Below, piece after piece: positions 26,767 to 34,110 of a stretch of 36,109 nucleotides of DNA. Numbering within the stretch: position 1 is the stretch's first letter; the number at the start of each line of letters is the position of its first letter. The DNA is from Acidobacteriota bacterium. GTDB lineage: Bacteria; Acidobacteriota; Thermoanaerobaculia; Multivoradales; JAHEKO01. Made by a program: the position numbers and the translations under genes. The notes beneath the pieces are model-generated. The model was not told the origin of the DNA and made no database searches. It saw nothing but the letters and a program-made list of their open reading frames with translations. The stretch spans positions 1 to 36,109 of the forward strand of contig JAUVRX010000005.1 of the NCBI GenBank assembly GCA_030597375.1, read 5' to 3'.

Positions 26767-29379
26767 TCACCCGTCCATCCTGGCTTTCAGGGAATGAAGC
26801 AGGTTGAGCGCCGCCAGAGGTGAAAGCCGCTCGAGATCGACCTCTCGCAGGATGGAGCCGACAACCTCCTCGGCCGGTGCGAACAGCATCATCTGATCCG
26901 CCCCCCTGTCGCCTCTGTCCACGCCCTTGGCCAGGCGTGGTTGGCCACTCAGGTCGTACTCGTAGGCTTCCAGATTCTGGAGCACCTGCGAGGCTCGCTC
27001 GATGACGGTTTCCGGAATGCCCGCCAATCGGGCGACGTGCAATCCGTAGGACTTATCAGAGCTACCCGGCTTGACCCGCCGGAGGAAGACGATCTTGTCT
27101 TCCCACTCCCTGACGGCCATCGTTCGATTGACCACCCTGGGGAGAATTGCTGCGAGCTCTGTCAGCTCGTGATAGTGGGTGGCGAAGACGGTCTTCGGCC
27201 GGCAGTGCTCATGCAGATGCTCGACGATGGCCCAGGCGAGGGAGAGCCCATCGAAGGTGGCGGTCCCCCTTCCCACTTCATCGAGAATCACCAGGCTGTT
27301 GGCCGTCGCCTGATGCAGGATCCTGGCGGTCTCGATCATCTCCACCATGAAGGTGGATTCCCCGCGAGTCAGATCGTCGGAAGCCCCCACGCGGGTGAAG
27401 ATCCGGTCCACGGTACCGATCGAAGCTGATTCAGCCGGTATGAAGCTGCCTGTCTGAGCCATCAGCACAATCAGTGCCGTCTGACGCAGATACGTGGACT
27501 TGCCGCCCATATTGGGCCCCGTGAGAATCACGATCTGGCCTGTTTCACTGTCGAGCTCGGTGTCGTTGGGGACAAACGGCTCGCTCCCCAGTTTCTCTAC
27601 GACCGGATGCCTTCCCTCCGAGATGCGAATGGCCCCACCCAGCTCGCTGACATCGGGCCTCGTGTACCGATTCCTGGCTGCGACCTCGGCAAAGGTCGCC
27701 AGCACATCCAGTCTCGCCACGGACTTCGCCGCCAGCAACAAGCGGGCAGACTCTCTGGCCACCAGTTCTCGCACCCTCCTGAAATGCTCGATCTCCAGTC
27801 GAAGCTGCTGTTCCTCGGCAGCGAGGATCTGCTCCTCGAGATCTTTCAGCTCCGGTGTCACGTACCGCTCGGCGTTGACCAGGGTCTGTTTCCGAATGTA
27901 GTCCTCCGGGACCAGGTGCTGATTGGCCTTCGTCACCTCGAGGTAGTAGCCGAAAACCTTGTTGTAGCGAATCTTCAGCGAGGTGATACCGGTCCTCTGC
28001 CGCTCTCTTTCTTGCAGGGCAAGGATGTGCTGTCGACTGTCTTGTGCCAGCGAACGGTGACGATCCAACTCTTCATCCACCCCGGCCCTGATGACTCCTC
28101 CTTCCTTCAGGGAAGCAGGGGGGTTGTCCTCGACCAGACGTTTCAACTCGGCGGCCAGGCCCGATACGACGTCGGTCCTGCCGATTTCTTGCAGGGCAGC
28201 AGCCTCTACTTCGGACAGGGAATCCTCGATCTCGGGCAGGCGATCGAGGCCCGAGCGCAAGGTTGCCGCCTCGCGAGGGGTCATGGTCTCCAACACAGCC
28301 CTGGAGGCAAGGCGCTCCAGGTCCCCCACCTTTGCCAGAAGCCCTCTCAGTTCGGCTCGCAGAGCAGATTTCTCCAGCAACTCCGCCACCGCCTGTAGAC
28401 GCTCGTTGATCTCCGCCGGATCACGCAGGGGCCGCTTCAGCCACTCCCGCAGCAGGCGCCCACCCGCGGGAGAAACGGTGCGATCCAGGACCCCGAGCAG
28501 AGATCCGTGCCGACGCCCGTCCCTCAGGTTTCGGAAAATCTCCAGATTCGCGACGGTCGTCGCGTCCAGGACCAAGCTGTCAGAGGTTTCGCTGACTCGC
28601 AACTCCCGCACATGCGAGAGATCGCTCTGCTGTGTCTCTCTCGCGTACCGTAGAGCGGCAGCAGCAGCCTGTACCGCTGGCTCATCGTCATCCAGCCCGA
28701 AGCCCTTCAGAGTGGAAGTCCCCAGTTGGCGGCAAACCAGCTCCGCGGCTCTTCCGGGACGGAACCAGTCCTCTTCCGACTCGGGCGTTCGACAGATGCC
28801 CTCGGCTTCCATCCAGTCGATGAGAGTCCGAGGAAGACCCGACACCGGATGCAGGACCTCCTGTGGCCGAAGCAGGGCCAGATCATCGAGTGAATCCTCC
28901 ACTCGGGTCCACCGTCGCACAAAGAACCTACCGGTCGAGATATCCAGAAAAGCTCCGCCCCCTCGAGCGTCGTTCCATGCCACGCTCGCCAGGTAGTTGG
29001 CCTCCGCACCCTCCAGAAGCTCCGGGTCGGTCACGGTTCCAGGTGTGATCACCCGGGTGACCTCCCGTTTCACCAGGCCCTTGGCCTTGGAAGGGTCCTC
29101 GACCTGGTCGCAGATGGCCACCTTCAGCCCAGCGCGAAGCAGCTTCCCCAGGTACATCTGAAGGGCATGATGGGGGACCCCGCACATCGGTGCTTCGCTC
29201 TTGCTCCCCCGATTTCGGGCCGTCAGGGTGACCTCCAGAATGGGAGCTGCCCGCTCGGCGTCCTCGAAGAACATCTCGTAGAAATCTCCCATGCGGTACA
29301 GCACGATGGCGTCCTCATGATCCGCCTTCACATCGAGATACTGGCGAAGCATGGGAGTGAGCTGGACGGAAGTCGCCAT
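26767..29379 (-). CDS. mutS: DNA mismatch repair protein MutS
   Basis: MutS recognises mismatches and small loops and recruits MutL. The 870 residues match MutS1 length. The N-terminal mismatch-reading Phe-X-Glu lies in MGDFYEMFFED, followed by TLTARN and APMCGVPHHA. Lever and clamp domains are intact. The ATPase has Walker A TGPNMGGKST, then ESTFMVEM, Walker B VILDEVGRGTATFDG and the H-loop VFATHYHEL. A C-terminal segment suited to tetramer or beta-clamp contact completes it. The ATG at 29379 is 21 bp from the divergent tsaB start, and the two may share a symmetric -10. No mutL is in the window. Confidence 0.98.
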   Translation of the reverse strand: MATSVQLTPMLRQYLDVKADHEDAIVLYRMGDFYEMFFEDAERAAPILEVTLTARNRGSKSEAPMCGVPHHALQMYLGKLLRAGLKVAICDQVEDPSKAKGLVKREVTRVITPGTVTDPELLEGAEANYLASVAWNDARGGGAFLDISTGRFFVRRWTRVEDSLDDLALLRPQEVLHPVSGLPRTLIDWMEAEGICRTPESEEDWFRPGRAAELVCRQLGTSTLKGFGLDDDEPAVQAAAAALRYARETQQSDLSHVRELRVSETSDSLVLDATTVANLEIFRNLRDGRRHGSLLGVLDRTVSPAGGRLLREWLKRPLRDPAEINERLQAVAELLEKSALRAELRGLLAKVGDLERLASRAVLETMTPREAATLRSGLDRLPEIEDSLSEVEAAALQEIGRTDVVSGLAAELKRLVEDNPPASLKEGGVIRAGVDEELDRHRSLAQDSRQHILALQERERQRTGITSLKIRYNKVFGYYLEVTKANQHLVPEDYIRKQTLVNAERYVTPELKDLEEQILAAEEQQLRLEIEHFRRVRELVARESARLLLAAKSVARLDVLATFAEVAARNRYTRPDVSELGGAIRISEGRHPVVEKLGSEPFVPNDTELDSETGQIVILTGPNMGGKSTYLRQTALIVLMAQTGSFIPAESASIGTVDRIFTRVGASDDLTRGESTFMVEMIETARILHQATANSLVILDEVGRGTATFDGLSLAWAIVEHLHEHCRPKTVFATHYHELTELAAILPRVVNRTMAVREWEDKIVFLRRVKPGSSDKSYGLHVARLAGIPETVIERASQVLQNLEAYEYDLSGQPRLAKGVDRGDRGADQMMLFAPAEEVVGSILREVDLERLSPLAALNLLHSLKARMDG

Positions 29380-29400: not shown

Positions 29401-30087
29401 GTGACCCAGAACAGCGCCGACATCGAACCCCGAATCACCCTGGCGATTGACGCCGGCTCACCAATAGTCAGCGCTGCTCTCGCCAGAGATGGAGAGCTCC
29501 TCGCCGAGAGGTATACCCAGATTCGACGTTCCTCGCTGGAACTGATTCCGATGATCGACGACTTGCTATCAGAGGTCGGCTCGTGTACCAGCGATCTCGG
29601 TGGCATCCTGGGTCTCAGAGGCCCCGGCAGCTTCACCGGGCTGAGAGTAGGACTCGCCACCTGCCTCGGTCTCCATCAGGCCCTTGGTGTTCCTGCCGCG
29701 ACCCTGACCACCTTTGAAACCATCGCTTCCGTCTCTCCTGAGAGAGACCTGGTCGTCCTGGCTGCCGTCGAGTCGATTCGCCACAGCTGGCTGGTGCAGA
29801 CCTTTCGCGCCGATGAGGTGCCCGAGCCCCTCGACGAACCACGGACGGTCGCCGCTGAAGAGCTCGCCGCCGCGAAGGCCGATCTGGTGATCGGTTTTGG
29901 CGTCAACAGCATCTCGCCACGCGCCGGCCGAGCCTTCAGGGCTGCGATTCTGGAGCCTCCGCCTCTCGCTGGCCAGGCGCTGATGCTGTGGGGACGCAAG
30001 CAAGAACAATGGGATCCTTCCGGGCTCGTGCGGCCCCTCTACTTGCAAGCCCTGTCTGCTACACAGCCAACCACATCTGCCCCATGA
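29401..30087 (+). CDS. tsaB: tRNA threonylcarbamoyladenosine biosynthesis protein TsaB
   Basis: TsaB is the scaffold partner of TsaD and TsaE in making the universal t6A37 modification of ANN-decoding tRNAs. The 228-residue ASKHA-fold protein shows the N-terminal LAIDAGSPIVSAAL phosphate-1-like strand pair, LELIPMIDDLL, and the diagnostic GPGSFTGLRVGLATCLGL. The C-terminal half is more variable. The GTG at 29401 gives the expected N-terminus after a short extension, with no alternative start. It is divergent from mutS. No tsaD, tsaE or rimI neighbour is visible. Confidence 0.94.
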   Translation: MTQNSADIEPRITLAIDAGSPIVSAALARDGELLAERYTQIRRSSLELIPMIDDLLSEVGSCTSDLGGILGLRGPGSFTGLRVGLATCLGLHQALGVPAATLTTFETIASVSPERDLVVLAAVESIRHSWLVQTFRADEVPEPLDEPRTVAAEELAAAKADLVIGFGVNSISPRAGRAFRAAILEPPPLAGQALMLWGRKQEQWDPSGLVRPLYLQALSATQPTTSAP

Positions 30088-30387: not shown

Positions 30388-30624
30388 ATGGCGAAGACAG
30401 CTGACAGCTTGAGGGAAGAGTTGCTCACCACCGACGAAGAATTCCGCAATCTTCACGACCAACATCAGGACCTTGAGCACCGGCTCACCGAGCTTCACCA
30501 GAAGTCACTGCTCTCCGAGAAAGACGAACTGGAGGAGAAACAGATCAAGCGCCAGAAGCTCTTTCTCAAGGATCAGATGGAGACCATCTTGCGCCAACGC
30601 CAGAGGGAGGAAGCGCCGGTCTGA
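30388..30624 (+). CDS. DUF465 (YdcH-like) small coiled-coil protein
   Basis: The 78-residue, highly charged helical protein has the DUF465 pattern: an N-terminal helix with HDQHQDLEHRLTEL and a C-terminal helix with KDELEEKQIKRQKLFLKDQM. The last part corresponds to the family's LKKEKLxLKDEI signature. A two-helix hairpin is expected. The function of this family is not established. The ATG is preceded by TAGGAGGCACAGTGG, an excellent Shine-Dalgarno, which confirms translation. It is followed 67 nt later by psd. Confidence 0.85.
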   Translation: MAKTADSLREELLTTDEEFRNLHDQHQDLEHRLTELHQKSLLSEKDELEEKQIKRQKLFLKDQMETILRQRQREEAPV

Positions 30625-30691
30625 GCCACGCTACCTTGACCCTCGGCTCGCACTCCTCCGCCCGCATTCCGTCCCCGCCCATCGGCTTCTA

Positions 30692-31327
30692 ATGACCTTC
30701 GCCAAAGAATCCCTGCCCTTCGTGGTGCCGCTCGGAATCGCGGCCCTGGTGATGGTTTTGTTCGGACAGACACCCTGGGCCGCCGGCCTGGGTAGCCTCG
30801 CAATCCTCATATTGCTCTTCTTCCGCGTCCCGAAGCGGCACAGCGAGGCACCCGAGGACAGCATTCTGGCTCCGGCGAATGGCCGAATCCTTCGCCTCGA
30901 TCGAAGCCCGGCTCTCCTGGACGGCAAGGGAGATGCCCAGCGGATCGTCACTTTCTTGTCTGTCTTCGATGTCCACGTGCAGCGCACACCTGTCAGCGGC
31001 GAGGTAGTCGAGAGTCGTTTCACCCCGGGGCGAAAGGTGGCGGCCTTCAAGGAGGAGGCCGGTAGCGTCAACGAGAACCACTTCATCGTCCTGCGGCGGA
31101 GGAACGGTGACCTCATCGGAGTGCGGCAGCTCGCCGGTCTGGTCGCACGGCGCGTCGTCTGTCCACTACTACCTGGCGACCAGGTTCAGCAGGGAGACCT
31201 GATGGGATTGATCAAATTCGGGTCCCGTGTCGACCTGATGCTTCCCGACAACTACGAGATTCTCGTTCGCCCGGGAGACCGCCTGCGCGAGGGTGAAACC
31301 GTAGTGGCCAGGCGGAGGACGCCGTAA
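30692..31327 (+). CDS. psd: Phosphatidylserine decarboxylase (short, PSD-A type)
   Basis: Psd makes phosphatidylethanolamine from phosphatidylserine. The track ORF begins at 30473, but homology starts at the ATG at 30692, giving 211 residues, the size of the short PSD-A class. Two close hydrophobic segments (about 5-40) anchor it to the membrane. The conserved substrate motif is FLSVFDVHVQRTPVSGEV, and KFGSRVDLML contains the Gly-Ser at which the proenzyme self-cleaves to form its pyruvoyl group. The start has no clear Shine-Dalgarno. The partner gene pssA, which often follows, is absent; an aspartate-semialdehyde-dehydrogenase-like gene takes its place. Confidence 0.94.
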   Translation: MTFAKESLPFVVPLGIAALVMVLFGQTPWAAGLGSLAILILLFFRVPKRHSEAPEDSILAPANGRILRLDRSPALLDGKGDAQRIVTFLSVFDVHVQRTPVSGEVVESRFTPGRKVAAFKEEAGSVNENHFIVLRRRNGDLIGVRQLAGLVARRVVCPLLPGDQVQQGDLMGLIKFGSRVDLMLPDNYEILVRPGDRLREGETVVARRRTP

Positions 31328-31352
31328 GGCCTCGCACTCCATCGGCCGGCTG

Positions 31353-31369
31353 CTCAGACCTCGTCTGAG
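31353..31369 (+). other. Hairpin between psd and the Asd-like gene
   Basis: CTCAGAC-CTC-GTCTGAG is a perfect 7-bp stem with a 3-nt loop, 25 nt after the psd stop. There is no following T-tract, so it is more likely an RNA-stability or attenuation element than an intrinsic terminator. Confidence 0.4.
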
Positions 31370-31408
31370 ACATCAGGGCAACCAGGCTCCGAGGCAAGAG
31401 ATCCAATC

Positions 31409-32368
31409 ATGACGGTCCTGGCGATCATCAATCCGCAGTCGCTACTCGGGGGCGAGATCAAGAAATCACTGGGACGGCGGCGAGAGCTCTGGTCCGACGT
31501 TCGGCTTCTGGGAACCGAGCCGGCCCAGGTCGGAGCGGTCACCGAATTCGCTGGCGAAGCGGCCCTGGTTCAGGAGTGCGATGTGGAGGCCCTGCAGGGG
31601 GTTCGGCTCGCCATCCTCCTGCCTGGCGATGAAGATCCGACGGCAGCTCAGCTGAGCTTGCCAGCCGACTCGACCCTGCTGGTTGTCGATCCGAAAAGCG
31701 GCTGGCATGGAGCGACGCCAGCAGTAGCTGGCATCGATTCGACAGAGGATCGATCTGGAGCGGTCTTCATCAGTCCGTCGCCGGTGGTCATTCTCCTGGC
31801 GCATCTCCTCCAGCCTCTTCAGGACCTGGGGACGTCGGCAGCCGTCGCCCAGATTCTCATGCCGGCATCGACCCAGGGCCAGGCCGGCTTGGACGAGTTG
31901 TTCGAGCAGACCCGATCCTTTCTTGCCGTGCAGGATGACAAGCCAACCGAGGTTTTCGGCAAGCAGATCTCCTTCAACCTCTTTCCCCTCTCCTTCGACG
32001 ACACCAGGCATCTCGACCCACTGACACGAATTCTGGGCGGCAACCCCGCCGTGGCCCTGCAGGTCGTTCAAGCCGGGGTCTTTCACTGCCTGGCGTGCAG
32101 CCTCTTCCTGGGCTTCGACCAGGACCCGGGTCTCGAAAAGCTCCGGCATTGCCTCGCAGCCAATCCCTGGATCGAGATGGCGGGTGAAGGAGAGCTTCCC
32201 GGACCCACGGATGCGGCTGCGCGCGAAGAAATCCTCGTCGCAGATCTCCGACCCAGTCCGACGCGTCCGGGGTCCTACCAACTATGGGCTGTGATGGACA
32301 ACCTCACTCGTGGAGGTGTCTCCAACGTGCTGGGAATCGTCGAGAGTCTCCTCGCGCCTGCCAGTTGA
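31409..32368 (+). CDS. Degenerate aspartate-semialdehyde dehydrogenase homologue (USG-1-like)
   Basis: The 319 residues track the aspartate-semialdehyde dehydrogenase fold end to end: an N-terminal Rossmann region, a middle PASTQGQAGLDELFEQT segment (enzyme SGAG..EL..Q) and a C-terminal WAVMDNLTRGGVSNVLGIVE (enzyme DNLxxGAAxNAVQIAE). The catalytic parts are lost. The dinucleotide loop GATGxVG reads NPQSLLGG, the nucleophile region expected as NPNC reads SPSPVV, and the GHS histidine region reads VFHCLACS. It is therefore probably a pseudoenzyme comparable to E. coli Usg. It lies 81 nt after psd. A regulatory or assembly role is speculative; the enzymatic call should be avoided. Confidence 0.75.
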   Translation: MTVLAIINPQSLLGGEIKKSLGRRRELWSDVRLLGTEPAQVGAVTEFAGEAALVQECDVEALQGVRLAILLPGDEDPTAAQLSLPADSTLLVVDPKSGWHGATPAVAGIDSTEDRSGAVFISPSPVVILLAHLLQPLQDLGTSAAVAQILMPASTQGQAGLDELFEQTRSFLAVQDDKPTEVFGKQISFNLFPLSFDDTRHLDPLTRILGGNPAVALQVVQAGVFHCLACSLFLGFDQDPGLEKLRHCLAANPWIEMAGEGELPGPTDAAAREEILVADLRPSPTRPGSYQLWAVMDNLTRGGVSNVLGIVESLLAPAS

Positions 32369-32418: not shown

Positions 32419-32937
32419 CTACTCGATGCCTGCGTCCGGTGGCGGGATCACGCCTCCCTCGCGCGCCAGAAACTCCTCCACATGCAGCAGCCCATCCTCG
32501 CCTGCCCGCTTCACCACCTGTAGGAGGGTCCCCATCGTGTTGACCTCCTCGAACTGTTCGTTGACGAACCAGTCGAGGAACCGGACAGCGATGTGCTTGG
32601 AGTCCTCGTTGGCGATATCCACCAGGCCATAGATCTGCTGCGTAACCTCCTCTTCCCACTCGAGCGCCAGCTTCACGGCTTCCTCGGCACTGGCAAACTG
32701 ACTCTGCGGAGCTGGTATGGCGGGAATCTGGAGAGATCCATCGGCATCCACGATGAACCGCACGAACTTCATGGCATGGTCTCGCTCTTCGTCCGCCTGC
32801 CGATAGAAGAAGCGGGCCAGGCCGCCAAGCGCTTCCCTGTCGAAATACGAGGCGATAGCCACGTACTGGAGCGACGCTCCGAACTCGTTGCCGACCTGCT
32901 GGTTCATGGCTGAGATTAGTTTCTCACTCGCTAACAT
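32419..32937 (-). CDS. ftnA: Non-haem ferritin (FtnA-type)
   Basis: Ferritin oxidises Fe(II) and stores it as a mineral core in a 24-mer shell. The track ORF starts at 33285, but the ATG at 32937 has AAAAGGAGA upstream and gives the family N-terminus MLASEKLISAMNQQVGNEFG, 172 residues in all. The ferroxidase ligands Glu18, Glu51, His54, Glu95, Gln128 and Glu131 all lie one position from those of E. coli FtnA. The site C residues Glu50, Glu127 and Glu130 are also kept. No haem-binding Met is evident. It is divergent from trxB across a 204-bp region and convergent with the Asd-like gene. Confidence 0.94.
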   Translation of the reverse strand: MLASEKLISAMNQQVGNEFGASLQYVAIASYFDREALGGLARFFYRQADEERDHAMKFVRFIVDADGSLQIPAIPAPQSQFASAEEAVKLALEWEEEVTQQIYGLVDIANEDSKHIAVRFLDWFVNEQFEEVNTMGTLLQVVKRAGEDGLLHVEEFLAREGGVIPPPDAGIE

Positions 32938-33141: not shown

Positions 33142-34110
33142 ATGTCGAACAGCGAACCGTCGGACAACAACCACTTCAAAGTTATCGTCATGGGTTCGGG
33201 GCCCGCGGGCCTCACCGCCGCCCTCTACGCCGCCCGCGCCAATCTGCAGCCGCTCGTGCTCGAGGGTAGCCAACCAGGCGGACAACTGACCATCACGACA
33301 GACGTGGAGAACTTCCCAGGGTTTCCGGATGGGATTCTCGGTCCAGAGCTGATGGACAGGATGCGCTCCCAGGCTAAGCGTTTCGGTGCTGAGGTCAATT
33401 TCGAGGTGGTCTCTGCAGTCGATCTGAGCACTCGACCCTTCGAGATCAGAACCGACGCGGACCGCTACCTCGCTGACGCCCTGATCATCGCCACCGGCGC
33501 CAGTGCCAAGCAGATCGGCCTGGAATCCGAGAAGGAGCTGATGGGGTATGGAGTTTCAGCCTGTGCCACCTGCGATGGATTCTTCTTCAAGGACAGGGAG
33601 ATCGTCGTCGTAGGTGGCGGCGACAGCGCCTTGGAAGAGGCGGTCTTCCTCACCAAGTTCGCCAGCAAGGTGACGGTCATCCATCGCCGCGACGAGCTAC
33701 GGGCCTCGCCGATCATGCAGGATCGAGCGCGGGCCAACGACAAGATCCACTGGCTCTGGAACAAGCAGGTGATCGAGATCCTGGGCAGCCGGCAAGACAA
33801 GGTCCGCGGCGTCAGGGTGAAGGACACACAGAGCGGCGAAGAGTCCGACTACCCCTGTGAAGGAGTCTTCATCGCTATCGGACACACGCCCAACACCGAG
33901 CTCTTTCGAGGCGATCTGGAACTGAACGAAGTCGGCTATATCGAGGTCCAGGAGCCCTCGACCCGGACCAATTTCGGAGGTGTTTTCGCCTGTGGCGATG
34001 CCACCGACCCCACCTACAGACAGGCAATCAGCGCCGCCGGCTCCGGCTGCAAGGCCGCCATCGATGCCGAGCGGTGGCTCGAGACCGGCTCGGATGGACC
34101 GGCGGGCTAG
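33142..34110 (+). CDS. trxB: Thioredoxin reductase
   Basis: TrxB transfers electrons from NADPH through FAD to thioredoxin. The 322 residues contain FAD-binding [32 protein letters not shown], the redox-active CATC (Cys141, Cys144) within [11 protein letters not shown], the NADPH-binding [10 protein letters not shown] and HRRDELRAS, and the C-terminal FAD motif [11 protein letters not shown]. The HRR motif indicates NADPH rather than NADH or ferredoxin as donor. The Shine-Dalgarno is GCGGAGGAGA. It is divergent from ferritin, and the pairing suggests a shared link to oxidative or iron stress. Confidence 0.97.

Follow-up and report, generated by a model that had tools for sequence, protein, structure and literature searches.

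The window, which is the whole 36,109-nucleotide stretch of DNA analysed, comes from a genome of 3.0 Mb in 323 contigs that is 91.7% complete. It carries a gene encoding a protein related to aspartate-semialdehyde dehydrogenase (Asd) and to Usg. The gene and its product are called ASDL here, which is our own label for the Acidobacteriota Asd/Usg-type pseudoenzyme. The genes at the locus are listed below with the evidence used for each.

26767..29379, minus strand: mutS, at the divergent end of the conserved block (ORF list, context)
29401..30087, plus strand: tsaB, conserved neighbour (NCBIfam, context)
30388..30624, plus strand: DUF465 small protein, conserved neighbour (Pfam, context)
30653..31327, plus strand: psd, phosphatidylserine decarboxylase (short form), directly upstream of ASDL (Pfam, NCBIfam, context)
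31409..32368, plus strand: ASDL, 319 aa, putative catalytically dead protein of Asd/Usg fold (ORF, Pfam, NCBIfam, predicted structure, alignment)
32419..32937, minus strand: ferritin (ftn), convergent neighbour, kept in many relatives (Pfam, context)
33142..34110, plus strand: trxB, thioredoxin reductase, conserved neighbour (NCBIfam, context)

The earlier note on this DNA described an intact frame between psd and a ferritin gene. This arrangement was confirmed: psd lies upstream, the ferritin gene lies convergent downstream, and ASDL is a full ORF of 319 aa that begins with ATG. The ASDL start follows the psd stop by about 80 bases, and pssA, which stands between psd and ASDL in most relatives, is missing from this interval (31327-31409). 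A divergent PssA homologue with 37% identity is encoded elsewhere in the same genome (G000:C185:4692-5168). A search for a promoter or terminator splitting psd from ASDL returned no match, a result that carries little weight in this kind of genome.

The Pfam search identified the Asd dimerisation domain PF02774 in ASDL (42 bits, E 1.4e-10, cut-off 26) and gave no match to the N-terminal dinucleotide domain PF01118. The NCBIfam asd and Usg models cover most of the protein, but at 56-58 bits against cut-offs of 223-324; for the Usg families PRK08040 and PRK05671 the score is 56 bits against 273-284. A phmmer search of the PDB returned two Asd structures as the best matches, 8juo (E 4e-11) and 2qz9, followed by USG-1, 2hjs (E 1.5e-9). 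An AlphaFold model built on 18 aligned relatives (pLDDT 86, pTM 0.88) has 2hjs from P. aeruginosa as its closest solved structure (TM 0.90), with many Asd structures next, and because of these matches both domains of the fold are predicted to be retained. PF02774 and the predicted model together place ASDL in the Asd fold superfamily, which is defined by the two-domain fold and the dimerisation domain. Thus, the comparison of a predicted structure with Asd, proposed in the earlier note, agrees with its description of an Asd homologue that keeps the fold, and the similarity to Asd is significant.

Catalytic residues were mapped by aligning ASDL with E. coli Asd, E. coli Usg and intact Asds of the phylum. 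Three sites in ASDL were located in this alignment.

31430..31450, plus strand: NPQSLLG, residues 8-14, aligned with the GxxGxxG dinucleotide loop
31772..31783, plus strand: SPSP, residues 122-125, at the nucleophile Cys site (E. coli Asd GGNC135)
32081..32092, plus strand: FHCL, residues 225-228, with the clade-specific, near-invariant FH

ASDL has NPQSLLG in place of the loop, S124-P125 at the position of N134-C135 of E. coli Asd, and L228 and Q221 at the positions of the catalytic H274 and the substrate-binding R267. In addition, R102 is replaced by G98 and Q162 by M151. The earlier note had reported from the sequence that the loop, the nucleophile Cys region and the His region were all replaced, and the alignment bears this out. 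The catalytic positions are replaced in every psd/pssA-linked member of the group, none of which has a Cys at the nucleophile site. The four Cys of ASDL (57, 227, 230 and 248) fall in columns where no more than 4 of 61 relatives have Cys, and because they are unconserved a relocated Cys/His pair was ruled out.

Several other positions are highly conserved across the 61 ASDL members. F225 is present in all and H226 in 59, and the remaining values are P152 98%, S154 97%, F189 97%, D297 97%, E163 92% and Q167 90%. Most relatives have SPHP where the window has SPSP; His occupies the old N134 site in 44 of 61 members, and the old Cys position is Pro in 82%. The FH pair lies two residues ahead of the lost catalytic His (L228 = H274); it does not characterise true Asd, and E. 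coli Usg has FY. In the AlphaFold model the strand with the old His position has H226 at its edge. Judging by the alignment, the ASDL clade has gained a new near-invariant Phe-His, whereas the remaining conserved positions are mostly common to true Asd and would fit upkeep of the fold and dimer.

Of 59 relatives that share the window's genus, family or order, 42 have ASDL according to a family profile search. Across the phylum the profile has matches in 86 of 199 genomes, and some of these are to true Asds. A tree of 73 sequences places the 58 ASDL rows in one clade (SH-aLRT 99). This clade groups with E. coli Usg and one proteobacterial sequence (SH-aLRT 98), and the intact bacterial Asds and archaeal-type Asds lie apart. 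The tree was made by a quick method with only one named Usg, and E. coli Asd and a few other rows are on long branches. By this tree ASDL is grouped with Usg and not with true Asd, and its clade is sister to E. coli Usg, as the relationship to Usg suggested earlier would predict. The loss of catalytic residues is not local decay; the ASDL clade is spread through the Acidobacteriota. One contig titled Deltaproteobacteria (L061) carries ASDL and its gene block, which fall inside the acidobacterial order, and is probably a misnamed MAG.

Selection was estimated by simple Nei-Gojobori counts, with synonymous sites near saturation in some comparisons. Between the window and a same-genus relative, dN/dS was 0.225 for ASDL, 0.222 for tsaB, 0.192 for DUF465, 0.149 for psd and 0.072-0.099 for ftn, trxB and mutS; twelve further ASDL pairs gave 0.07-0.39. 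ASDL is under purifying selection, yet it evolves as fast as its fastest neighbours.

ASDL resembles several known systems in part. Bacterial Asd (TIGR01296 asd_B, PRK14874) has the same two-domain fold with a C-terminal dimerisation domain, and the motifs F..QIAFN.xP and W.v.DNL..G..N are common to both, but ASDL lacks the Cys, His, Arg and NADP loop and scores 56-58 bits against 223-324. The archaeal/fungal-type Asd of the order (TIGR00978) is a distant fold relative on a separate deep branch; it is an intact enzyme family and was not found in the host genome. E. coli Usg and P. aeruginosa USG-1 (2hjs; PRK08040, PRK05671) are like ASDL in having the Asd fold with the nucleophile Cys replaced. 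However, E. coli Usg keeps a GATGAVG loop and the catalytic His (QAPVFYGH); the loop is lost from ASDL, and so, in this order, is the His. To our knowledge, the role of Usg, a known dead relative of Asd, has so far gone unexplained. The contexts also differ, as E. coli usg lies in pdxB-usg-truA-dedA (PMC6358828) and ASDL lies beside psd-pssA. For Salmonella, usg has been annotated as an operon gene encoding a putative Asd (PMC6358828). None of truA, dedA, accD, folC and pdxB occurs in the ASDL loci of the relatives, and an identity with Usg by gene order was rejected. The literature searched, which left subscription journals mostly outside it, contained no description of the ASDL clade or of its link to psd-pssA.

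The block mutS (divergent)-tsaB-DUF465-psd-pssA-ASDL-(ftn, convergent)-trxB recurs through the order. By coordinate matching, 35 of 42 order genomes have ASDL and psd side by side on one contig. In G030 and G051 the neighbour is pssA, which brings the genomes with psd or pssA next to ASDL to at least 37 of 42; counting three genomes with pssA directly upstream on a contig without psd (G023, G031, G037), the figure is 40 of 42. Contig ends cut the ASDL loci of the other two (G010, G041). Elsewhere in the phylum, psd and/or pssA lies upstream in 32 of the 35 ASDL loci fetched, and neither was beside Asd in the five intact-Asd loci examined with flanks. About ten loci have open frames of about 600 aa that might be read as ASDL-PssA fusions, and these were rejected because the Arg-rich N-terminal part is out-of-frame pssA, an effect of GC content.

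The position directly downstream of psd or pssA is kept across the phylum, including loci that show no tsaB, ftn or trxB. One lineage, which includes contigs titled Candidatus Aminicenantes, has psd-pssA-ASDL-msbA-like-yicC-gmk-coaBC. Three loci without psd-pssA (L093, L095, L101) still have ASDL with yicC-gmk-coaBC, and two of the three also have the msbA-like gene. An MsbA-type ABC transporter gene and yicC follow ASDL in L072, L077, L093, L098, L099, L101, L105 and L113; gmk is likewise present except in L113, where the contig is cut, and coaBC wherever the locus extends far enough. Conversely, psd-pssA is kept without ASDL in some genera (L123-L125), and ASDL has been cleanly lost from psd-pssA-trxB in one genus and from psd-pssA-ftn-trxB in G005. 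ASDL occurs without an operonic pssA in the window, L127 and L128, and several genomes of the window's family have psd-ASDL with no intervening pssA.

The earlier note also called for a check for a true asd elsewhere. In the host genome (91.7% complete) PF02774 matches ASDL alone, the archaeal-type Asd model gave nothing above its cut-off, and no true Asd was detected. True Asd was undetected in 14 of the 42 ASDL carriers, and nine of these 14 are at least 90% complete; both proteins are present in the other 28. Over all 59 genomes there is no association between ASDL and true Asd (Fisher p 1.0); without one over-sampled genus p is 0.014, partly due to incomplete genomes. The true Asd of the order is mostly of the distant archaeal type and is often encoded beside homoserine dehydrogenase. 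One genome (G003) has ASDL and neither Asd nor homoserine dehydrogenase detected, and from this and the lack of association ASDL is not tied to the aspartate pathway.

Some further observations concern this pathway. No true Asd and no homoserine dehydrogenase were found in G005, G008, G011 and G013, which are 92-97% complete. DapB was found in 2 of 30 relatives searched, and amino-acid dependence or an alternative lysine route is possible. In the window's genus, a homoserine dehydrogenase gene lies beside a PLP aminotransferase gene and Asd is undetected (L119 = G000:C297:1-3661; L120 = G001:C551). Further neighbours are an ornithine-cyclodeaminase-like gene in L119 and, in L120, genes for an M20 peptidase and an amidinotransferase/deiminase-like protein; all these neighbours were named by eye. 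Perhaps homoserine is used catabolically in this genus.

These results bear on several explanations of ASDL. That it is an active aspartate-semialdehyde dehydrogenase with unusual residues is extremely improbable; the Asd fold and the lack of another detected Asd in the host genome would agree with this, but ASDL lacks the dinucleotide loop, the His, the substrate Arg and a Cys, whether at the nucleophile site or conserved at another position, and G003 carries ASDL without a detected homoserine dehydrogenase or Asd. Fast evolution and the loss of all catalytic residues might suggest a decaying pseudogene, a reading refuted by the selection signal (dN/dS 0.07-0.39) and given next to no weight, with open full-length frames in most of the phylum sample. 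ASDL could instead be a regulatory or heterodimer partner of true Asd, given the common fold and dimerisation domain and the 28 of 42 genomes with both. However, since true Asd is undetected in 14 of 42 carriers, the host genome included, ASDL cannot be solely such a partner. Co-occurrence across the 59 genomes gives this role no support and the order's true Asd is mostly of the distant type, and we regard it as very unlikely.

An enzyme with a rebuilt active site, in which FH and a PHP motif at the old Cys site carry out a different, NADP-independent reaction, is also unlikely. In its favour are H226, present in 59 of 61 members but not usual in true Asd, the His that 44 of 61 have at the old N134 site, and the conservation of P152 and S154, but the PHP His is Ser in the window's genus, most other polar active-site positions drift (the equivalents of R102, Q162, R267 and K244), and FH could be structural. 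The other main rival of the reading preferred below, likewise rather improbable, is that ASDL is a conserved pseudoenzyme with a job unrelated to lipids, in a tsaB-psd-trxB neighbourhood that is old gene order retained. The tsaB, DUF465, mutS and trxB genes stay in the same block, and as tsaB, trxB and mutS are conserved neighbours too, the position of ASDL may be inherited and not functional; whole genera also have psd-pssA and no ASDL. Against this, ASDL lies directly downstream of psd or pssA phylum-wide, also in lineages whose loci show no tsaB, ftn or trxB, and an MsbA-type gene adjoins it in one lineage.

The preferred reading, with a probability of roughly 0.45, is that ASDL is an Asd/Usg-type pseudoenzyme of ancient origin that has been co-opted for phosphatidylserine/phosphatidylethanolamine synthesis, where it probably serves as a scaffold or regulator in dimeric form; the lipid role is suggested by gene context. 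The results support a non-catalytic, Usg-related Asd homologue, to judge by its residues, that is maintained for another role. This fits the earlier suggestion that the gene is kept for such a role, given purifying selection, a conserved place in the genome and clade-wide residue loss. Because ASDL is kept beside membrane-phospholipid genes phylum-wide, a lasting function, either non-catalytic or newly built, is probable, with phosphatidylethanolamine synthesis the likeliest place for it, and the MsbA-type lipid ABC exporter gene that follows it in one lineage supports the lipid reading. The dependence is not absolute, since psd-pssA occurs without ASDL and ASDL without pssA or psd-pssA. ASDL would be a homodimer in the cytoplasm, acting on PssA and/or Psd where these meet the membrane surface; its part in phosphatidylserine-to-phosphatidylethanolamine synthesis would be that of a scaffold, a regulator or an assembly factor. 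The conserved dimer and cleft residues (P152, S154, E163, Q167, F225-H226 and D297-N298) would be used in place of the old chemistry. The proposal that Acidobacteriota use ASDL as a dedicated part of this synthesis, a PssA/Psd subunit or regulator that is non-catalytic or newly catalytic, is tentative and somewhat doubtful.

Beyond the first reading from sequence, this analysis adds the phylum-wide spread, the psd-pssA linkage, no detected true asd in the host genome and the near-invariant Phe-His. An automatic label "aspartate-semialdehyde dehydrogenase" on ASDL would be wrong and could mask a missing enzyme in these genomes. Here an Asd-fold pseudoenzyme has a role that can be put to the test, because the clade is phylum-wide, its context is stable and suggestive of phospholipids, true Asd was not found in some carriers and the near-invariant H226 can be mutated. 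If ASDL is such a dedicated component of lipid synthesis, the fold of an amino-acid enzyme would have become a PssA/Psd subunit or regulator, and the Usg group would gain a functional clue.
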